A stretch of DNA of 8,660 nucleotides from Lysobacterales bacterium UBA2790 (GTDB taxonomy: Bacteria; Pseudomonadota; Gammaproteobacteria; Xanthomonadales; Xanthomonadaceae), in NCBI GenBank assembly GCA_002352135.1, contig DEHW01000217.1, positions 10,927 to 19,586 of the forward strand, written 5' to 3'. Below, one piece after another: positions 1,763 through 8,660 of this stretch. Position 1 is the stretch's first letter. The number at the start of each line of letters is the position of its first letter. The position numbers and the translations under genes are program-made. The notes below the pieces were generated by a model, which made no database searches, was not told the origin of the DNA, and saw only the letters and a program-made list of their open reading frames with translations.

Positions 1763-1790
1763 TAACGCAACCACCTTCGCGGTGGAAAAC
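1763..1790 (-). repeat. Degenerate type I-F CRISPR repeat 2 (3' repeat of the guide)
   Basis: Aligned on the hairpin, this copy matches 16 of the 22 visible nt of the array repeat. Its stem is CCACC/GGTGG around loop GCGAA. Two of its six differences, at repeat positions 8 and 18, form a compensatory pair (G-C changed to A-T/U), so the 5-bp stem stays intact, and the loop keeps the GNR(N)A form. The 3' flank (TTGCGTTA) has drifted from the handle sequence, which is expected since it lies beyond the Cas6f cut and would not be in the mature guide. Confidence 0.75.
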
Positions 1791-1816
1791 CAGTCAATAC
1801 ACCAACAGACCTAACA

Positions 1817-1844
1817 CTTCTAAGCCGCCTGCACGGCGGAACAC
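1817..1844 (-). repeat. Degenerate type I-F CRISPR repeat 1 (5' repeat of the guide)
   Basis: Against the 22 visible nt of the array repeat (8639-8660), this minus-strand segment matches at 18 positions; mismatches are at repeat positions 3, 4, 5 and 12. The hairpin is perfect: stem CCGCC/GGCGG, loop GTGCA in place of GCGCA, still a GNR(N)A pentaloop. It ends CTTAGAAG, closely resembling the 8-nt I-F 5' handle (CTAAGAAA type) left on crRNAs after Cas6f cleavage. Changes are concentrated in the unpaired 5' arm, where they should do least harm to processing. Confidence 0.9.
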
Positions 1845-1880: not shown

Positions 1881-4763
1881 CTAGTTTCTTGCGACCCTTT
1901 TCACGCCGAACGCCGCGTCGTAAACAAACATCTCCTGCGGGTCGTACCGCGAAAGCTCGGCACTCAGCCCATCACGCTCAGCAATTGACCATCGCCGACA
2001 AGCCGCACGCATAGCGTCAACGTTGACACCGAGCCAGGCATTGGCGACAGATGGCACTTCCGAAATCACATCTGGCAGCCGCTCCTCGACAAGTTTCCCT
2101 CCGCGCGACAGTGCAACAGTTCGATGAAACGTCACAGACAGTGCATCACCGCCAATCTCCCATCGCTCCGAATGCCCGACTTCGCCGCGAAGTGGTGTCT
2201 GCTGATATGGGCTTCCCGGCCCCTGGGTCATCAGCCAGGAATGCGGTGCGTCACCAACCCAAACACCACCACGCCCGAAGTAGGGTTGCACTCGTCGTTG
2301 AATAGCCTCGTCATCTGCTTTCGCCATCCCGCAATTCGGATCAAATCGGATGCCAGCGGTAATCGCCATGTATCCATCTGATGCCCAAGGAAGCAGCTTC
2401 GCGAGGTCATGGTCCCCATAGGCGTTGGCGCGGCGACGCTTCGCAGGACGCGTCAACTCGTAGCCCGGATAGCAAAACGCGGCGCGTTCCGAATCACCCT
2501 GGTTCCTCGCGCAATGTCGCCAGTTGAACTGCGGCACAAGTACATTGGCGAACCCTTCGGTATGCACAAGCCGATGCCGATTGACGCGCCCACTCGCTTG
2601 CACCAACGACTGAGCTGACGAGACATCCACCACAGCCCAATCGAAGTCATGGTCTCGACCGATCTCTTCCACCGGCGTCGCAACCACGATGAACGCAACG
2701 GAGCGAGACTTGGCTTCGTCGAGCAGGGCGCGGATTTCCGCGTCGACAGCAATGTGCTCGTCACCTGCCGCACGCGACAACAGCTTGTCCAGTCGCTGCT
2801 CCTTGAGGAACCGCGCCATTCTGAAGTCACCGGAGTGGTAGCAGGCAACGCGAGCATCGGGCATGGCGTCAGCGAGGCTTCTTGCGGTATCGACCGCCGT
2901 GGCAATGTTGGCAACTCGAACAAGCCCAAACGACACCTTGTGTTCGCCACATGGCCATGCGTGCCAGGCATGCAGCGTCTGGCAGCCTTGGACCACCGCT
3001 GACGTCCAGCCTGCCTCGCTGACATCGGCCACCGGCAGCAACTGCGCAAGTCGATATGGCGGTGCAGAACGCAAGGCGCTCATCAATCGATCAACTCGCG
3101 CGTCAAACCAAGACTGATCAACCTCATCATGCGCATCGAGGCATTGCCACTCTGCCGACAGCTGGTCGTCAATCAAGGCGCAGAGCCAATCGGCCTTCTG
3201 CGACCCCAGCAAGGCCGCACGCAGTCGCACGCCGGTACGAAAGGCTTCCATCACCGCGTAAGCGGTTGCCTTGGAGAGCGTGGCCGACGAACAGACGACT
3301 TGCCTGCCTGCCAGCGCTGCCATTTGCACCACGCGCAAAACCGCGACCAGCGCTTCGGGCTCGTAGCTGTCGACCTCATCAAGAATCAGATCCGTACTGG
3401 CAGTCCGCAACCACGCTTTGACGAAGCGACCTTGTTGCCCCGGTTCACCAGCAGCCACCAGAAAATCGACCGTCGAAACCAACAGCGGTGTTGCCAACAG
3501 TCGCCGTTCGGATTCAGTTGCTACGCAGTTCTGCAACCAAACAGGCAGCTCCTCGCAGCCGCCCGCAATTTCTACCGCCAGCTCGGTCGGATTCTCGTCA
3601 ACGTCAACAGCCTCGGAGTCTTTTCGACTTGCTTGGAACAACTGCAAACTGACTTGGTCGCCGATGACGACCGCCATCTCGCTCTTCAAGGGAAGGATGG
3701 CCTTACGTAGGGCCTCGCCACTTTGCAAGGTGAGGTTGCGAAGGTTCAACGCGATCGACACGCGAGGCTGAACATCTCGCGACAGGACACAGGCCGCACG
3801 CAGGTTCATCCGGGTCTTGCCGCTGCCGGTCCCTGCCATGTTCAACACCAGACTTGGCGTCTCGGCATGCGTCGCCCGCGCCAGGCGCAATGCCTCGGCG
3901 GCACAATCCTGCCAAGCGAATCGCGATGTTGATCCAGCAGATTGCGTAGCGCGCTCTACCGTCGCATTTTGCAGTCCCCGCAGGGTGCCTGAAACCGATC
4001 CCGCTTCAATCCAACGCGCGATTTCCGAGAAGTCCAAAGCAGCCGCCAGACCAACCTCACGGAGGTGCCAATCCAACGGTTGATTCAATACGCGCTTTCC
4101 ATTCATTTCACAGGTATTGGCAAAGACGCCTTCAGCGGCGTCAGACGTCGCCAATACCTTTCTCGACACGCGATGATCAGCAGCCACCAGCGCAACACGC
4201 GCGATCAGCGCCAATGCGTACCAAAATCGCCCGTTGCCATTCTGGTGCGAGGCATCGGATTCGAGGGCTTGTTGCAGGCGGAAATAGTCGTCCCAAATCT
4301 GTGGCGAGATCTCTCCGACCGGCGAGACTTGGTCGTCGCAAGGCTCCCGCCTTACGTGCCTCGGCGCAGCGCTTGGACACATCGGGTTGCCATTTGCCGC
4401 GCTTGAGTTTTGCTGCGCGTGGAAAAGACCATGATGCGAGACGATTAGCCAGTCGATGGCCTCAAGTGCGTCAGTCACCCCCAACGACGAATGGCTGCCG
4501 ATCCGGCGATTTCCCAAAGTCACAGAAGAAAGACCCGCTCGCAAATGCGACCATGCGGCAGACCAGTCGCGACCATTGCCGCGCATCGCCTGAAGCAGCT
4601 TCATGCTCAACCACTCATGACGCACATCATCGCCTGCAACGACCAAGCGCCCACGCAATTTCGCATCAAAATGCCGACTGGCCTTGCCGATGTCATGCAT
4701 CAGACCACTCGCCTCACACAAATCCCTTCCGATGCCAATCCAATCGCGCAAGGTATTCTCCAT
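1881..4763 (-). CDS. cas3: Type I-F Cas3 helicase-nuclease lacking the fused Cas2 domain
   Basis: 960 residues from ATG at 4763; a TTG at 4790 would add nine, and a TGA at 4797-4799 blocks further extension. It unwinds and degrades DNA marked by Cascade. HD nuclease: LMHDIGK (HD at 23-24), RHEW (48-51), SHHG (109-112), ADHR (Asp196). Superfamily 2 helicase: NMAGTGSGKT (308-317), DEVD (462-465), SSAT (492-495), VANIATAVDTA (617-627), YHS (642-644), TPVEEIGRDHDFDW (696-709), QASGRVNRHR (722-731). The Walker A context, NLRNLTLQ, YHS and GRDHDFDW segments are the I-F flavour of Cas3. In I-F1 the protein is Cas2-3 of roughly 1,100 aa with an N-terminal Cas2; here it starts about 22 residues before the HD pair, so only Cas2 is missing. 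It is transcribed divergently from the Csy operon, with the crRNA-like element 36 nt past its stop. Confidence 0.95.
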   Translation of the reverse strand: MENTLRDWIGIGRDLCEASGLMHDIGKASRHFDAKLRGRLVVAGDDVRHEWLSMKLLQAMRGNGRDWSAAWSHLRAGLSSVTLGNRRIGSHSSLGVTDALEAIDWLIVSHHGLFHAQQNSSAANGNPMCPSAAPRHVRREPCDDQVSPVGEISPQIWDDYFRLQQALESDASHQNGNGRFWYALALIARVALVAADHRVSRKVLATSDAAEGVFANTCEMNGKRVLNQPLDWHLREVGLAAALDFSEIARWIEAGSVSGTLRGLQNATVERATQSAGSTSRFAWQDCAAEALRLARATHAETPSLVLNMAGTGSGKTRMNLRAACVLSRDVQPRVSIALNLRNLTLQSGEALRKAILPLKSEMAVVIGDQVSLQLFQASRKDSEAVDVDENPTELAVEIAGGCEELPVWLQNCVATESERRLLATPLLVSTVDFLVAAGEPGQQGRFVKAWLRTASTDLILDEVDSYEPEALVAVLRVVQMAALAGRQVVCSSATLSKATAYAVMEAFRTGVRLRAALLGSQKADWLCALIDDQLSAEWQCLDAHDEVDQSWFDARVDRLMSALRSAPPYRLAQLLPVADVSEAGWTSAVVQGCQTLHAWHAWPCGEHKVSFGLVRVANIATAVDTARSLADAMPDARVACYHSGDFRMARFLKEQRLDKLLSRAAGDEHIAVDAEIRALLDEAKSRSVAFIVVATPVEEIGRDHDFDWAVVDVSSAQSLVQASGRVNRHRLVHTEGFANVLVPQFNWRHCARNQGDSERAAFCYPGYELTRPAKRRRANAYGDHDLAKLLPWASDGYMAITAGIRFDPNCGMAKADDEAIQRRVQPYFGRGGVWVGDAPHSWLMTQGPGSPYQQTPLRGEVGHSERWEIGGDALSVTFHRTVALSRGGKLVEERLPDVISEVPSVANAWLGVNVDAMRAACRRWSIAERDGLSAELSRYDPQEMFVYDAAFGVKRVARN

Positions 4764-4825
4764 TGGCTGTCTCAGGTATTGAGACTGCAATGCCGTTCAC
4801 TACTGACCGCGCACATGCAGACAAC

Positions 4826-4854
4826 TTGACTATCGCCCAGCCAAGACCTACCGT
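4826..4854 (+). promoter_or_regulatory. Possible promoter of the cas8f-cas5f-cas7f-cas6f operon
   Basis: TTGACT (4826-4831, 5 of 6 to the -35 consensus), 17 nt, then TACCGT (4849-4854, only 3 of 6 to TATAAT). A start near 4861 would give a very short leader before the Shine-Dalgarno at 4868-4873. The weak -10 makes this less certain than the opposite cas3 promoter; the two predicted promoters are intertwined in about 30 bp. Confidence 0.4.
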
Positions 4855-4857
4855 CAA
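4829..4857 (-). promoter_or_regulatory. Predicted cas3 promoter
   Basis: On the minus strand TTGACG (4852-4857, 5 of 6 to the -35 consensus) is followed after exactly 17 nt by GATAGT (4829-4834, 4 of 6 to the -10). Predicted transcription starts near 4822, about 60 nt before the ATG. The -35 box overlaps the proposed guide-RNA target at 4855-4868, so a bound Cascade should hide it from RNA polymerase. Confidence 0.55.
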
Positions 4858-4870
4858 CAGACTTAACAGG
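4855..4870 (-). promoter_or_regulatory. Self-target of the guide RNA: seed protospacer with CC PAM in the cas promoter region
   Basis: On the minus strand CC (4870-4869) is followed by TGTTAAGTCTGTTG (4868-4855). This equals nt 1-14 of the spacer at 1816-1803 except at position 6 (A for G, leaving a G-T/U wobble with the target strand). CC next to the spacer 5' end is the canonical I-F PAM. From nt 15 to 26 only four positions agree, so full R-loop formation and cleavage are unlikely. The site overlaps the cas8f Shine-Dalgarno (AGGAGG, 4868-4873), lies at the likely cas8f transcription start, and covers half of the predicted cas3 -35. It reads as an operator bound by guide-loaded Csy complex. 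Confidence 0.87.
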
Positions 4871-4881
4871 AGGCTTCGTAC

Positions 4882-6063
4882 GTGAACACAGCAAGCACGC
4901 TCGACGAAAGCGCCGCCGCCGAGACTGCGACCAGCAGTCCAGACGACACCCCAAGCTGGAAGCCGCTCAGCGCCGATGCTTACGAGCAAGCCGCAGCCCA
5001 GCAGGTCCATTTCAGTTGCAAGACCGTTAACTCGAATGCGCGCGGCGGCGGCGTGCGACTGACACCCGATGCCGCACTGAACTTGCCTTACATCTGCGCG
5101 CGAACGCACCTCGCCACCGGACAGGCACTGGCGACCGATTACACCGTCAACTCGGGCAGCACCGCAACCGCCGTCAAGCAGTTTCGCGCCGTTGCGAAAG
5201 GCGACATCGCGCACGCGCCGCAGCAGGAAGTGACATTGATTCGAGACCTGCTCGCTCAAATCGCGGGCAGCGGGCTGGAGCTGGCACTGGAACCCATTGA
5301 CGCCCGTCTACGCCAGGTGCTGATCCCCCATCCAGATGCACCTCACGGATATGTTTCACTGACTCCCATCACCGCAGGCGGCGTGTGCGAAGCACTGCTG
5401 GGCCGAGAGGGACTGGCCACTCGACACAACGAGCTTGCCTCACTGAAAGAGCCTCGTGCAGCGGCAGACCTGATTCGCATTGGTCGCGTGCAGCTTGGCA
5501 TCGGCGGTGCCAACCCGCAGAACGTCGGCGCCTTGGTGCGCTCGATGCAACGCCCATTGCTGGCACCTGCACCCACGCAACAACAAGGTTTGCGTCAAGC
5601 GTTGCGCGTGTATCACAAGGGCATCGAATTGCCCGACCTCCGCGACTTCGCGAACGAACTTCAAGCGCTGCGTGCCCAGCACACACAAGACGAACAGATC
5701 CACAGTGGCATCGACTATCGCGAGCAAGAGCGCGCACTTCTGCAACGTCTGTTCAATGCCGTCCTGGCCGCAGGCGAAGAGGCTCGCTCGCTCCTGCTGG
5801 CTCATGCACCCCAACTGCCTAGTGCGGCTTCAGAAGACGGCAGCGCAAGCGCCTTGATCAGTATGCAAGTCGCCAGCGAAGTTCGCGGACTGATCCTCCC
5901 CGAATTGCGCAGCGAAGACTGGCCCGAACGCATCGCCGCACGCGTACTGCGCGCGCTTGAGTCCGCATACAGCAAACAGCGGGGCGAGCGCGTAGCAATC
6001 TACGTTCTCGATGCCAGCGCACGCGCCTCAACCCTTCGTCTGTTGGAGGACATCGCCCGATGA
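4882..6063 (+). CDS. csy1: Type I-F Cascade subunit Cas8f (Csy1)
   Basis: 393 residues from GTG at 4882; AGGAGG 8 nt upstream fixes the start. Cas8f caps the 5' end of the crRNA complex, recognises the PAM and starts R-loop opening. Residues 1-28 are a low-complexity acidic/Ser-Thr tail. Resemblance to Csy1: VNSNARGGG (49-57), IPHPDAPHGYVSLTPI (148-163), and above all GIGGANPQNVGALV (206-219), matching the GGTKPQNISQLN region of the Pseudomonas protein. A helical C-terminal bundle follows (about 250-393). In the motif, the position of the PAM-inserting lysine (K247 in P. aeruginosa, from memory) is Asn211, while the following Asn (214) is kept. It is slightly shorter than the roughly 430-residue model protein. 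It heads a four-gene operon and overlaps csy2 by ATGA. The guide-RNA target covers its ribosome-binding region. Confidence 0.88.
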   Translation: MNTASTLDESAAAETATSSPDDTPSWKPLSADAYEQAAAQQVHFSCKTVNSNARGGGVRLTPDAALNLPYICARTHLATGQALATDYTVNSGSTATAVKQFRAVAKGDIAHAPQQEVTLIRDLLAQIAGSGLELALEPIDARLRQVLIPHPDAPHGYVSLTPITAGGVCEALLGREGLATRHNELASLKEPRAAADLIRIGRVQLGIGGANPQNVGALVRSMQRPLLAPAPTQQQGLRQALRVYHKGIELPDLRDFANELQALRAQHTQDEQIHSGIDYREQERALLQRLFNAVLAAGEEARSLLLAHAPQLPSAASEDGSASALISMQVASEVRGLILPELRSEDWPERIAARVLRALESAYSKQRGERVAIYVLDASARASTLRLLEDIAR

Positions 6064-6863
6064 GCGCCCTGCTGCTACGCAATCTGCGTGTTGCCGAAGC
6101 CAATCTCATCAATAGTGGCTTTCTGGTGGGTGGTCCTGCAGTGCTGCCAGCCATGATGTTCGCGCATGCACTGGGACGCAGCCTTGGCGGCAACCCGCCA
6201 ACCGGCGTCGCCTACATTCACCACGACCGCCAGATCAAAGGCGAACGTGTGTATGGCGTCATGCACCCACAACAACGCCGCAGCGCGACCTACGTCTTTG
6301 AGTCCGGCAAGTCCAAGGACTACGCCAGCAGCGCCAAAGGACCCACGCTGTCGCTGCAACCCGTCGCCAACGGCAATCTTCGACTGTCGCTGCTGATCGA
6401 ATTCAATCGCCCCGTCGACGCACCCGACGAAGTCCGGCATTTCGTCTCACAGGCGCGCTTGGCGGGCGGGCGTATCGAGCACTGCGACGCGCCGCAGGTT
6501 TTCCCGGACCTCGATGACGCACTGGACACCATCGAAAGCGGCTTTCTGGTGTTGGACCGGAGTGACCTCATGCCACGACCCAGTGACGGCGACCCCATGG
6601 CAGCGTTGGTGCAACACCTCGGCCAGCGCAGTGATGACCCGCAGAAAAGCTGGCTCAGCGCTACCCATGTGGGCTATGCCCCGATCACCGCCATCGTGCC
6701 GCGTGCCGGCGCCCGCGAAGGCTATACCCATGCCTATGCCGAACCGATTGTCGGCCTCGTGCAGTACCGCTCACTCCGGCAGTTCACTGACCGCGCAACG
6801 CATGCCCTTTGGCGTCCGCAATGGACACCGGAAGGGGTTTTCCTGCTTCAACAATCCCACTGA
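6060..6863 (+). CDS. csy2: Type I-F Cascade subunit Cas5f (Csy2)
   Basis: 267 residues, ATG at 6060 overlapping the csy1 stop by 4 nt (ATGA), implying translational coupling. Cas5f pairs with Cas8f and holds the 8-nt 5' handle of the crRNA at the base of the complex. Csy2-like features: N-terminal LLLRNLRVAEANLIN (4-18) with FLVGGPAVLPAMMFAHALGR (21-40), QARLAGGRI (131-139), which matches the conserved RLAGGSI of Csy2, GYAPITAI (205-212), HAYAEPIVGLVQYRSL (224-239) and the closing segment LWRPQWTPEGVF (250-261). It is about 60 residues shorter than the Pseudomonas protein, mainly in the region after RLAGG, but shows no break in frame. Confidence 0.88.
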   Translation: MSALLLRNLRVAEANLINSGFLVGGPAVLPAMMFAHALGRSLGGNPPTGVAYIHHDRQIKGERVYGVMHPQQRRSATYVFESGKSKDYASSAKGPTLSLQPVANGNLRLSLLIEFNRPVDAPDEVRHFVSQARLAGGRIEHCDAPQVFPDLDDALDTIESGFLVLDRSDLMPRPSDGDPMAALVQHLGQRSDDPQKSWLSATHVGYAPITAIVPRAGAREGYTHAYAEPIVGLVQYRSLRQFTDRATHALWRPQWTPEGVFLLQQSH

Positions 6864-6881
6864 CCCGCAAGGAGCCTCACC

Positions 6882-7955
6882 ATGTCCACCCCGATGAAAA
6901 AGCTGCCCGGCGTTCTCAGTTTCCAACGCGGCACTGTGATCTCCGACGCCGCCTTCTACAACTTGGATGCGCAAGGCAACGTAAGCCCGCTGCACGTCAT
7001 CCGTCATGGCCTGCGCGGCACGCAGAACGTCAACATGGCCGCCGCCTCGGCAGGCGCATCCGCCAAGACCGCACGCCGTGAAGTGTCGAACATCCAGACC
7101 ACCGACAGCGCAAAGCTGTCGGCGGATGCCGTCGCGCTGCGCGTCCACTTCGATCTCAAGTTCATCGATCTCGACCAACTGCTGTTCGCCTGCGCGCCAT
7201 CGGCCAAAGACGCCATCGAAGACATCCAGCGCATGCGCACGGCCTTTCAGAGCTTCGTCAGCCGTGCCAAGCAGAGTCAGGGCATTGAGGATGTCGCCCT
7301 GCGCTATGCGCGCAACATCGCCAATGCGCGCTGGCTCTGGCGCAACCGCGCGGTGGCGGAATCGATCCAGATCGAAGTCCGAAGCGATGCACAGATCGTC
7401 GCCATCATTGATGAAGCGCTCGACGTTCCGCTCAACCAGTTCGATCACTTCAGTGCCGCCGAGCACGCCATCGCCCAGCACCTGCTGGCGGGCATGCGCG
7501 GCGAGCGCAGCGCCAAACTCAGCGTGCGCGCCGATGTCCGCTTTGGCGTCACCGGTGCCGTCGAAGTCTTCCCCTCGCAGAACTATCTGGAAGACAAGCA
7601 CAAAGGCTTTGCCCGACCGCTCTACACCCTGGGCGCACCGCAGTCCGAGCAGGACCCGCACAGCGTGCGCGAAATGGGTCAGGCGGCCCTGCGCGACCAG
7701 AAGGTGGCCAACGCGCTACGCACCTTCGACACCTGGTATCCCGACTTTGCCGAGCGCGGCCAGCCCATCGCCATCGAACCCAACGGGGCCAGCCTCGATG
7801 CCCAGACGTTTTTCCGCAACAGCAAAGACAGCTCCGCCTTCCAGCTGCTGTTGCAACTGGACAGCCTGGACCCCGACAGCCCCGAGGGCCGCTTCCTGCT
7901 CGCCTGCCTGATTCGTGGTGGTGTCTACTCCGGCGACAGCAAGGAAGCCAAGTAA
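6882..7955 (+). CDS. csy3: Type I-F Cascade backbone Cas7f (Csy3)
   Basis: 357 residues, ATG at 6882 with AAGGAG 7 nt upstream, 18 nt after csy2. Cas7f polymerises along the crRNA spacer (six copies on a 32-nt spacer in the studied complex), and its thumb flips out every sixth nucleotide. Strong Csy3 signatures: VLSFQRGTVISDAAFY (11-26), RYARNIANARWLWRNR (141-156), EVFPSQNY (228-235), NALRTFDTWYP (277-287), IAIEPNGAS (296-304) and C-terminal LIRGGVYSGD (343-352). Length is as expected (about 340). Having its own ribosome-binding site fits the need for several copies per complex. Every segment expected of an RNA-binding Cas7f is present; nothing appears broken. Confidence 0.95.
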   Translation: MSTPMKKLPGVLSFQRGTVISDAAFYNLDAQGNVSPLHVIRHGLRGTQNVNMAAASAGASAKTARREVSNIQTTDSAKLSADAVALRVHFDLKFIDLDQLLFACAPSAKDAIEDIQRMRTAFQSFVSRAKQSQGIEDVALRYARNIANARWLWRNRAVAESIQIEVRSDAQIVAIIDEALDVPLNQFDHFSAAEHAIAQHLLAGMRGERSAKLSVRADVRFGVTGAVEVFPSQNYLEDKHKGFARPLYTLGAPQSEQDPHSVREMGQAALRDQKVANALRTFDTWYPDFAERGQPIAIEPNGASLDAQTFFRNSKDSSAFQLLLQLDSLDPDSPEGRFLLACLIRGGVYSGDSKEAK

Positions 7956-8509
7956 TGCACGCCTCGGCCTATCTGGACATCCGCGTCCACGGCGGCGCGG
8001 ATAGCGATTTGCAACCCGCCGTCTTGCGCGGGCGATTACTTGGCATCCTGCACGGCTGCTTCCGTCAACTGCCACAACCTTTCGCCATCGCCCTGCCCAA
8101 CCAACGCAACGGACTGCGTGTCTTCGCCAGCGAGCGAACGCATTTCGATGCGCTGGTCAGCGCACTGCAGGGCCACCGCTGGATTCGCGACTACGCCCAC
8201 ATCGGCTACCCGCTTCAGGTTCCGGTGGATTTTGCCGGACCGTGGATCGGCTATCAGCGCTTCCGCATACCCACGGTCAAGTCGGATCGTCACGCCGAAG
8301 CGGGCCGCAGCGCCCTGCGTGATCGCCGCCTGCAGGAAGCCCAGCAACGCGGTCTGGAGTACTTCCACCTGCACAGCGCCAGCAACCAGCAACGCTTCGT
8401 TCTGGCCGTGGAAGCAAGGGCACACACCGCACCCGGCACGCACTTCAAGCCCAACAGCTACGGATTTGGCAGCACCGATAACCCCTGCGTGTTGCCGCAT
8501 CTACCCTGA
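7955..8509 (+). CDS. csy4: crRNA endonuclease Cas6f (Csy4)
   Basis: 184 residues; the ATG at 7955 overlaps the csy3 TAA by one base. Cas6f cuts the pre-crRNA at the 3' base of each repeat hairpin and stays on the 3' stem-loop as a Cascade subunit. It begins YLDIRVHGG like other Csy4 proteins. Catalytic residues of the Pseudomonas enzyme (His29, Ser148, Tyr176) appear to correspond to His33 in LLGILHGCF, Ser141 (or Ser143) in LHSASNQQRF, and Tyr169 in NSYGFG. The arginine-rich helix that reads the hairpin is visible at 112-125 (RHAEAGRSALRDRR). The last gene of the operon, directly ahead of the leader and array. The intact catalytic set supports processing of both the array and the degenerate repeats at 1763-1844. 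Confidence 0.93.
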   Translation: MHASAYLDIRVHGGADSDLQPAVLRGRLLGILHGCFRQLPQPFAIALPNQRNGLRVFASERTHFDALVSALQGHRWIRDYAHIGYPLQVPVDFAGPWIGYQRFRIPTVKSDRHAEAGRSALRDRRLQEAQQRGLEYFHLHSASNQQRFVLAVEARAHTAPGTHFKPNSYGFGSTDNPCVLPHLP

Positions 8510-8638: not shown

Positions 8639-8660
8639 GTTCACCGCCGCGCAGGCGGCT
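8639..8660 (+). CRISPR. First repeat of a type I-F CRISPR array, cut by the window end
   Basis: The last 22 bases begin GTTCACCGCCGCGCAGG and continue to CGGCT, the I-F repeat form (GTTCACTGCCGTATAGGCAG type in Pseudomonas). The stem is CCGCC/GGCGG with loop GCGCA. Six more bases of a 28-nt repeat, and all spacers, lie beyond the window. Position after cas6f and leader, plus two related degenerate copies at 1763-1844, support the call although only one repeat is seen. Confidence 0.9.

Follow-up and report, generated by a model that had tools for sequence, protein, structure and literature searches.

A putative CreR-type guide RNA behind cas3 of a divergent, Cas2-less type I-F CRISPR-Cas locus

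The type I-F locus analysed here carries directly behind cas3 a mini-array that, judging from its sequence, probably encodes a CreR, an RNA that would guide the Csy complex to positions 4855-4870 in front of cas8f, where binding without cleavage would repress the locus's own cas genes. The window, by which we mean the whole stretch of DNA analysed (8,660 nt, contig positions 10927-19586), ends where the contig ends. As described in excerpts of three reviews, CreR (Liu et al. 2023) is a crRNA-like RNA, partly complementary to a cas promoter, that leads the effector to repress cas genes, generally without a coupled toxin (PMC12737573, PMC12948488, PMC13131331). The element would extend RNA-guided cas self-regulation to a type I-F system that is divergent and lacks Cas2, and the loci compared with it provide an evolutionary test of guide use, in which nt 6 and nt 12, taken as flipped out, drift while their neighbours stay paired.

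The locus and its mini-array

The cas3f gene on the minus strand is divergent to the genes cas8f-cas5f-cas7f-cas6f on the plus strand (4882-8509), beyond which an array begins (8639-8660):

1763..1790, minus: psi-repeat 2, GTTTTCCACCGCGAAGGTGG..., with hairpin CCACC-GCGAA-GGTGG
1791..1816, minus: guide (pseudo-spacer) of 26 nt, nt 1 at 1816; from sequence and match scan
1817..1844, minus: psi-repeat 1, a degenerate I-F repeat GTGTTCCGCCGTGCAGGCGGCTTAGAAG, with hairpin CCGCC-GTGCA-GGCGG; from hairpin scan and sequence
1881..4763, minus: cas3f, 960 aa from ATG 4763, without N-terminal Cas2 domain; TIGR02562 positions 105-975 of 1110
4826..4854, plus: predicted weak promoter-like TTGACT-17-TACCGT towards cas8f; by eye, missed by the scan
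4829..4857, minus: predicted promoter-like TTGACG-17-GATAGT towards cas3; 1 found by the scan, shuffle mean 0.0
4855..4868, minus: target of guide nt 1-14, 13/14 match
4868..4873, plus: Shine-Dalgarno AGGAGG of cas8f; by eye
4869..4870, minus: CC PAM (5'-CC at 4870-4869), complement of the GG inside the Shine-Dalgarno
4882..6063, plus: cas8f/csy1, GTG start; PF09611
6060..6863, plus: cas5f/csy2; family matches
6882..7955, plus: cas7f/csy3; family matches
7955..8509, plus: cas6f/csy4, predicted processing nuclease; family matches
8639..8660, plus: first repeat of the CRISPR array, initial 22 nt only, then contig end; from sequence

The mini-array (1763-1844, minus) lies directly behind cas3 on the same strand and consists of psi-repeat 1, one spacer and psi-repeat 2, with 36 nt between the cas3 stop and the start of psi-repeat 1. 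Compared by eye with the visible array repeat, psi-repeat 1 differs at 4 and psi-repeat 2 at 6 of 22 positions, and the hairpin of psi-repeat 2 has a compensatory A-T in place of a G-C in that of psi-repeat 1. The spacer measures 26 nt against ~32 nt for the array spacers of relatives (repeat spacing 60). This anatomy, a crRNA-like gene between degenerate repeats at a cas locus, is the one expected of a CreR; an ordinary array with a self-targeting spacer would combine near-identical repeats with a full-length spacer match, a combination that the window does not show. The Rfam search returned nothing at the gathering score. No consensus promoter upstream of the guide appeared in the promoter scan, an absence that carries little weight because 16 of the 22 guide-target pairs described below also lack one in the same scan; the position of the guide suggests co-transcription with cas3, a matter that promoter scans cannot decide. 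An array downstream of cas3 was considered as the source of the guide and is unsupported, the arrays near cas3 in L011 and L053 lying 5' of that gene. A 319-aa reading frame (702-1661, minus) adjoins the mini-array; searches of Pfam and NCBIfam gave it no family at E <= 0.001.

Since the TIGR02562 match of the window Cas3 begins at position 105 of 1110, the N-terminal Cas2 domain is absent. Of the 47 loci surveyed, 5 (the window, L026, L037, L040 and L047) have no match to the Cas2 part of the Cas2-3 protein of L005, and the N-termini of their Cas3 proteins agree with a missing Cas2 part. L005, on contig C106, is a second I-F system of the source genome, with Cas1 and a Cas2-bearing Cas3; a further Cas1, on contig C203, is probably of type I-E, and we take the repeat at the start of that contig to be an I-E repeat. 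By Cas3, the nearest relative of the window is P0051 (77%), and by Cas8 it is P0002 (53%). In a listing of 120 of the 287 homologues, type I-F Cas3 proteins without PF21384, presumably the fused Cas2 part of such proteins, fall into at least two groups; among these listed matches the window type has 937-963 aa and the Polaromonas type 980-998 aa, and the proteins concerned are P0050-P0056, P0109, P0129, P0141, P0144, P0150 and P0152, of which P0109, P0129, P0144, P0150 and P0152 stand for clusters of the Polaromonas type. One of the five loci, L047 on a Pseudomonas silesiensis plasmid, bears a cluster of I-F-like repeats, unequal and irregular in spacing, in the interval from cas3 to cas8f (6718-7640), and the locus is without a Cas1 or Cas2 match.

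The guide-target match in the window

Guide nt 1-14 (TGTTAGGTCTGTTG) and the minus-strand target TGTTAAGTCTGTTG at 4868-4855, ~3 kb away, are identical at 13 of 14 positions with the sole mismatch at nt 6; a rescan confirmed this match and its CC PAM, first noticed in a sequence-only reading of the window. Pairing breaks up after nt 14, where that reading had it stop: nt 13, 14 and 17 pair, and mismatches occur at nt 15, 16, 18-21 and 23. On both strands of the window, the guide itself aside, the next-best sites have 4 mismatches and no CC. The target abuts the cas8f Shine-Dalgarno, with one base common to both, and lies 14 bp before the cas8f start codon. The canonical CC claimed for the PAM is present; its GG complement belongs to the Shine-Dalgarno, so that at this single locus it is not independent evidence. 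The -35 element of the predicted cas3 promoter overlaps the target, and a complex loaded with a 26-nt guide would cover ~4843-4870 and hence parts of both predicted promoters. A CreR would likewise be expected to match, in part and next to a PAM, the promoter or leader of the cas operon to which it belongs, as the guide does here.

That such a match should arise by chance is practically negligible as an explanation. It has in its favour that the gap was picked after the match had been seen. The figure of 4 in a million calculated in the sequence-only reading is right under the assumptions made there. When the window's own 14-mers were used as pseudo-guides against the 9 CC sites in 4764-4881 (14-mers overlapping 4755-4890 excluded), the real guide was the only one of 16,994 with <=1 mismatch to a CC site in the gap, and 6 had <=3 mismatches; at a looser cut, 2 of 20,000 dinucleotide shuffles of the cas3-cas8f gap gave CC with <=2 mismatches to the guide. 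The 15-nt pattern CCTGTTANGTCTGTT occurs exactly once in the source genome (2.97 Mb, 76% complete), at the target site, and once more with one mismatch. At CC sites, neither the window guide in L005 nor the L005 guide in the window finds a match with fewer than 5 mismatches. As a control, array spacers from the type I-F loci surveyed below (<=60 each) were tried as guides and gave mean best seed runs of 4.4-6.3 with maxima of 6-12, against 13 matches for the window guide; the seed runs of several relatives (7-10 matches) lie within the array-spacer maxima.

Guide-target pairs across type I-F loci

The comparison covered 47 loci: the window, L005 and 45 relatives. The Cas8f homologues comprised 49 proteins, sampled into an alignment of 23 rows (A1); 36 loci were gathered from genome contigs, 4 from plasmids and 3 from viral contigs. 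Among further genomes a match was found in 5 of 369, the source genome included, of which three were extended as L056-L058; a weak match (G187) was dropped, as was L054, the same locus as L016. Cas8f searches of 40 relatives and 398 genomes of the order returned the source genome only, and 398 genomes of the phylum added three weak partial matches. No relative was found in a first scan of genome contigs with Cas7, in viral contigs searched with the Cas3 alignments A2 and A3, or in phages searched with P0002. Guides were defined blind to targets, by the handle T.[AG]GAA[AG] and a 5-bp hairpin at either psi-repeat place, outside arrays, and targets were sought from -1600 to +30 of cas8f. This yielded 49 candidate guides in 32 loci and none in the remaining 15 of 47.

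Allowing <=2 mismatches in nt 1-11, a CC-flanked target was found in 22 of the 47 loci, compared with 0-6 for each other dinucleotide (0, 0, 0, 0, 0, 0, 1, 1, 3, 3, 3, 3, 4, 5 and 6 for the fifteen). With <=1 mismatch the counts were 13 loci for CC and 0-1 for the others, and with none 4 and 0; under the final definition 25 of 47 loci have no guide-target pair. This definition was the fifth tried. An unfocused scan (any GA[AG][AGT] handle, ~6.5 kb, nt 6 and 12 ignored, >=11/12 matches) gave 38 loci for CC and 25-37 for the others and was discarded as too noisy, so the repeat hairpin was made a requirement, and the CC signal emerges only with it. Intermediate scans gave CC in 14 of 48 loci against 0-2 (<=1 mismatch in nt 1-14, nt 6 and 12 ignored), and for nt 1-11 in 14 of 47 against 0-4 at <=1 mismatch and 33 against 10-22 at <=2. 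Two loci suggested by an earlier scan, L016 and L035, failed the final definition. Within the 22, L013 and L020 look like chance, having no repeat-like sequence before the guide, and the result stands without both.

The guides of the 22 loci form 19 clusters (9 of 11 identical positions join a cluster), and the persistence of matches across them indicates that seed and target change together. Independent drift of the two, which the sequence-only reading had named as evidence against itself, was not found, 22 of 47 loci keeping a CC-flanked match, albeit over a larger evolutionary distance. Type I complexes flip out every sixth base of the guide, with which the guide mutants of PMC8501985 are in accord. 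Over nt 1-24 the 22 pairs have 0, 0, 1, 1, 1, 12, 2, 2, 3, 3, 2, 17, 6, 6, 5, 6, 10, 12, 12, 11, 10, 8, 13 and 19 mismatches. Nt 6 accounts for 12 of the 27 mismatches in nt 1-11 (p = 1.5e-6), which bears out the earlier identification of this position as a flipped-out base; with one row per guide cluster it takes 10 of 25 (p 3.5e-5), and with the window also excluded 9 of 24 (p 1.6e-4). Nt 12, which had no role in selecting pairs, is mismatched in 17 of 22, compared with 23 of 88 at nt 13-16 (p 1.6e-5); nt 18 is no higher than nt 17 and nt 19. The pattern at nt 6 and nt 12 would be the trace of a type I complex; neither antisense RNA nor chance readily accounts for it.

A guide behind cas3 occurs in only two of the 22 pairs, those of the window and of L026, a Polaromonas MAG. 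The L026 layout is that of the window in other letters: psi-repeat 1 runs over the stop codon of cas3, the spacer measures 26 nt, a T-rich, terminator-like tail comes after psi-repeat 2, and the minus-strand target has its CC within GGAG (4089-4092), 6 nt before ATG 4099. This ATG is likely the cas8f start, a chosen one, as the frame is open further upstream. The seed is weaker, with mismatches at nt 6, 9 and 12, and no site like the cas3 promoter of the window was found in L026. A common origin of the two layouts was considered and set aside: neither the Cas3 tree nor the Cas8 tree puts L026 next to the window, so that two origins are likely, with the placement of L026 unsure. In ten Cas3 proteins >=90% identical to that of L026 (itself included) the C-terminal GACT is invariant (A3); its codons in L026 adjoin psi-repeat 1, and the invariance may reflect such an overlap of psi-repeat and cas3 in all ten.

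Similar elements were seen at further loci. L005 (C106, 12050-12330) has its own minus-strand mini-array, with a spacer of 13 nt by the same count; guide nt 1-11 agree with a CC-flanked site at 12169, which lies beside TTGACA, and downstream of this target AGGAGG-ATAGAG-ATGTGTTTAACCAGCACATGA provides a very short frame preceded by a strong Shine-Dalgarno, which makes the element a possible CreTA. L021 (Thiobaca, 3866-4019) combines a mini-array with a 16/17 CC-flanked match directly before cas8f and appears a clean CreR candidate, the space for a toxin being small. In L040 (Modicisalibacter, 9780-9945) psi-repeat 1 is degenerate and a CC-flanked target stands before cas8f; 16 of the 20 leading guide bases match, the mismatches falling at nt 6, 9, 12 and 18.

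Interpretation and comparison with known systems

In a CreTA the guide would serve as an antitoxin RNA, keeping a small toxin gene repressed and the cell dependent on the Csy complex. Such a system is published for type I-F in Acinetobacter, where the excerpted account places creA in the cas3-csy1 gap with a CC PAM and a mismatch at nt 6 (PMC10097628), and 11 of the 22 matched loci leave 399-729 bp between target and cas8f, where a toxin would fit; many guide-target pairs in relatives may be CreTA rather than CreR. In the window, however, the 14 bp between target and cas8f start codon leave room for nothing, and the ATG frames seen by eye in the 118-bp gap (4764-4881), of 4 codons on the plus and 14 on the minus strand, have no Shine-Dalgarno. 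By eye, and bearing in mind that RNA toxins can be tiny, this gap holds no mini-ORF with a Shine-Dalgarno other than that of cas8f, downstream of the target or elsewhere; we consider a CreTA improbable here. A plain antisense RNA, pairing with the cas8f mRNA leader and blocking ribosomes without the Csy complex, is improbable as well. The guide is antisense to the cas8f leader in the window and L026, and at the mismatched nt 6 of the window, where the guide has G and the target A, two RNAs would form a G-U wobble; yet guide and cas8f run in the same sense in 18 of the 22 loci, so that the guide cannot pair with the cas8f mRNA there, the nt 6 difference of L026 is C/T and no wobble, and a CC PAM with nt 6 and nt 12 left free in one locus after another is typical of a type I complex on DNA. 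We give very little credence to a decaying single-spacer remnant of a CRISPR array, acquired from self DNA and now without function. The repeats are degenerate, and the assumed full array repeat has no exact or near copy in the source genome (76% complete, array unassembled), as a remnant might lead one to expect; but a self-derived spacer should match over its full length and the window guide matches over its first 14 nt only, the hairpin of psi-repeat 2 is preserved by a compensatory change, and the agreement of guide and target is kept in relatives.

A CreR acting on its own cas genes by binding without cleavage, as proposed in the sequence-only reading, is the best reading and has the support of relatives as well as of the window. 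Csy4 would cut both hairpins of the mini-array to give a crRNA-like guide with a 26-nt spacer, which would lead the Csy complex to the CC-flanked seed at 4855-4870 in the cas8f leader; there the complex would stop, likely without cleavage, and repress cas8f-csy4 and probably the divergent cas3 too. If the element behaves like a published CreR, cas expression would rise once array crRNAs or anti-CRISPR proteins divert the complex from this site. We infer guide transcription and processing, binding in the cell, repression, relief and co-transcription with cas3. Limited pairing and a short spacer favour binding without cleavage. According to the excerpts, a type I-B spacer cut from 36 to 24 nt gave repression to 10.8% without interference, while a 28-nt spacer still led to cutting (PMC10989794), which counts against the present reading, the spacer here measuring 26 nt. 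In the I-F CreA of Acinetobacter sp. WCHA45, which represses via a CC-flanked partial target, single changes at nt 13-17 abolished function, nt 2-5 and 7-9 were also needed, nt 1 was needed only in part, and nt 10 and 12 were dispensable, as excerpted (PMC10097628); a pairing broken after nt 14 may therefore be too short.

A bolder version, in which the tail of the cas3 message itself is the guide, is possible but rather doubtful when all its parts are taken jointly. Csy4 would cut the CreR out of the cas3 3' end; the loaded Csy complex would sit on the overlapping divergent promoters and the cas8f Shine-Dalgarno; from this single site nuclease, effector and the source of the guide itself would all be shut off at once; and the layout would have arisen at least 2 times, in the window and in Polaromonas, each time with a Cas3 that had lost its Cas2 domain. 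If true, the level of repressor guide would be fixed by how much nuclease message is made, in a simple closed loop, with possible use in self-limiting CRISPR tools.

The principle, a crRNA-like RNA repressing cas or toxin genes, is already published for CreR and CreA (PMC12737573, PMC10097628), and a survey by Shmakov et al. 2023 is devoted, by its title, to CRISPR-derived regulatory elements in CRISPR-Cas systems (cited in PMC10651486). No description of a guide behind cas3 with the PAM in the cas8f Shine-Dalgarno was found in the published excerpts compared, a comparison outside which the texts of Liu 2023 and Shmakov 2023 lie; provisionally, we regard this layout as new. Relief of CreR repression, with cas expression rising, occurs when array crRNAs or anti-CRISPR proteins divert the complex (PMC12737573). 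The excerpts name subtypes I-B, I-E and V-A (PMC13131331), or type I and V-A (PMC12737573), for CreR, whereas the window is I-F; unlike in CreR, its guide stands behind cas3, ~3 kb from the target, and its PAM falls inside the cas8f Shine-Dalgarno, between divergent genes. With the Acinetobacter I-F CreTA, as far as the excerpts go, the window shares psi-repeats with Csy4-type hairpins, the CC PAM, the mismatch at nt 6 and a shortened spacer (20 nt there, 26 nt here); there, however, the guide lies in the cas3-csy1 gap, 17 of 20 nt pair and a toxin mini-ORF is repressed (PMC10097628), whereas in the cas3-cas8f gap of the window no such mini-ORF was seen, pairing is broken after nt 14 and the target is the cas8f leader. 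The haloarchaeal CreA has two psi-repeats; its seed pairs at nt 1-5 and 7-11, and nt 6 and 12 can be changed without loss, according to the excerpt (PMC8501985); that system is type I-B with a toxin target and a TTC PAM, whereas the window is type I-F with a CC PAM and the cas8f leader as its target.
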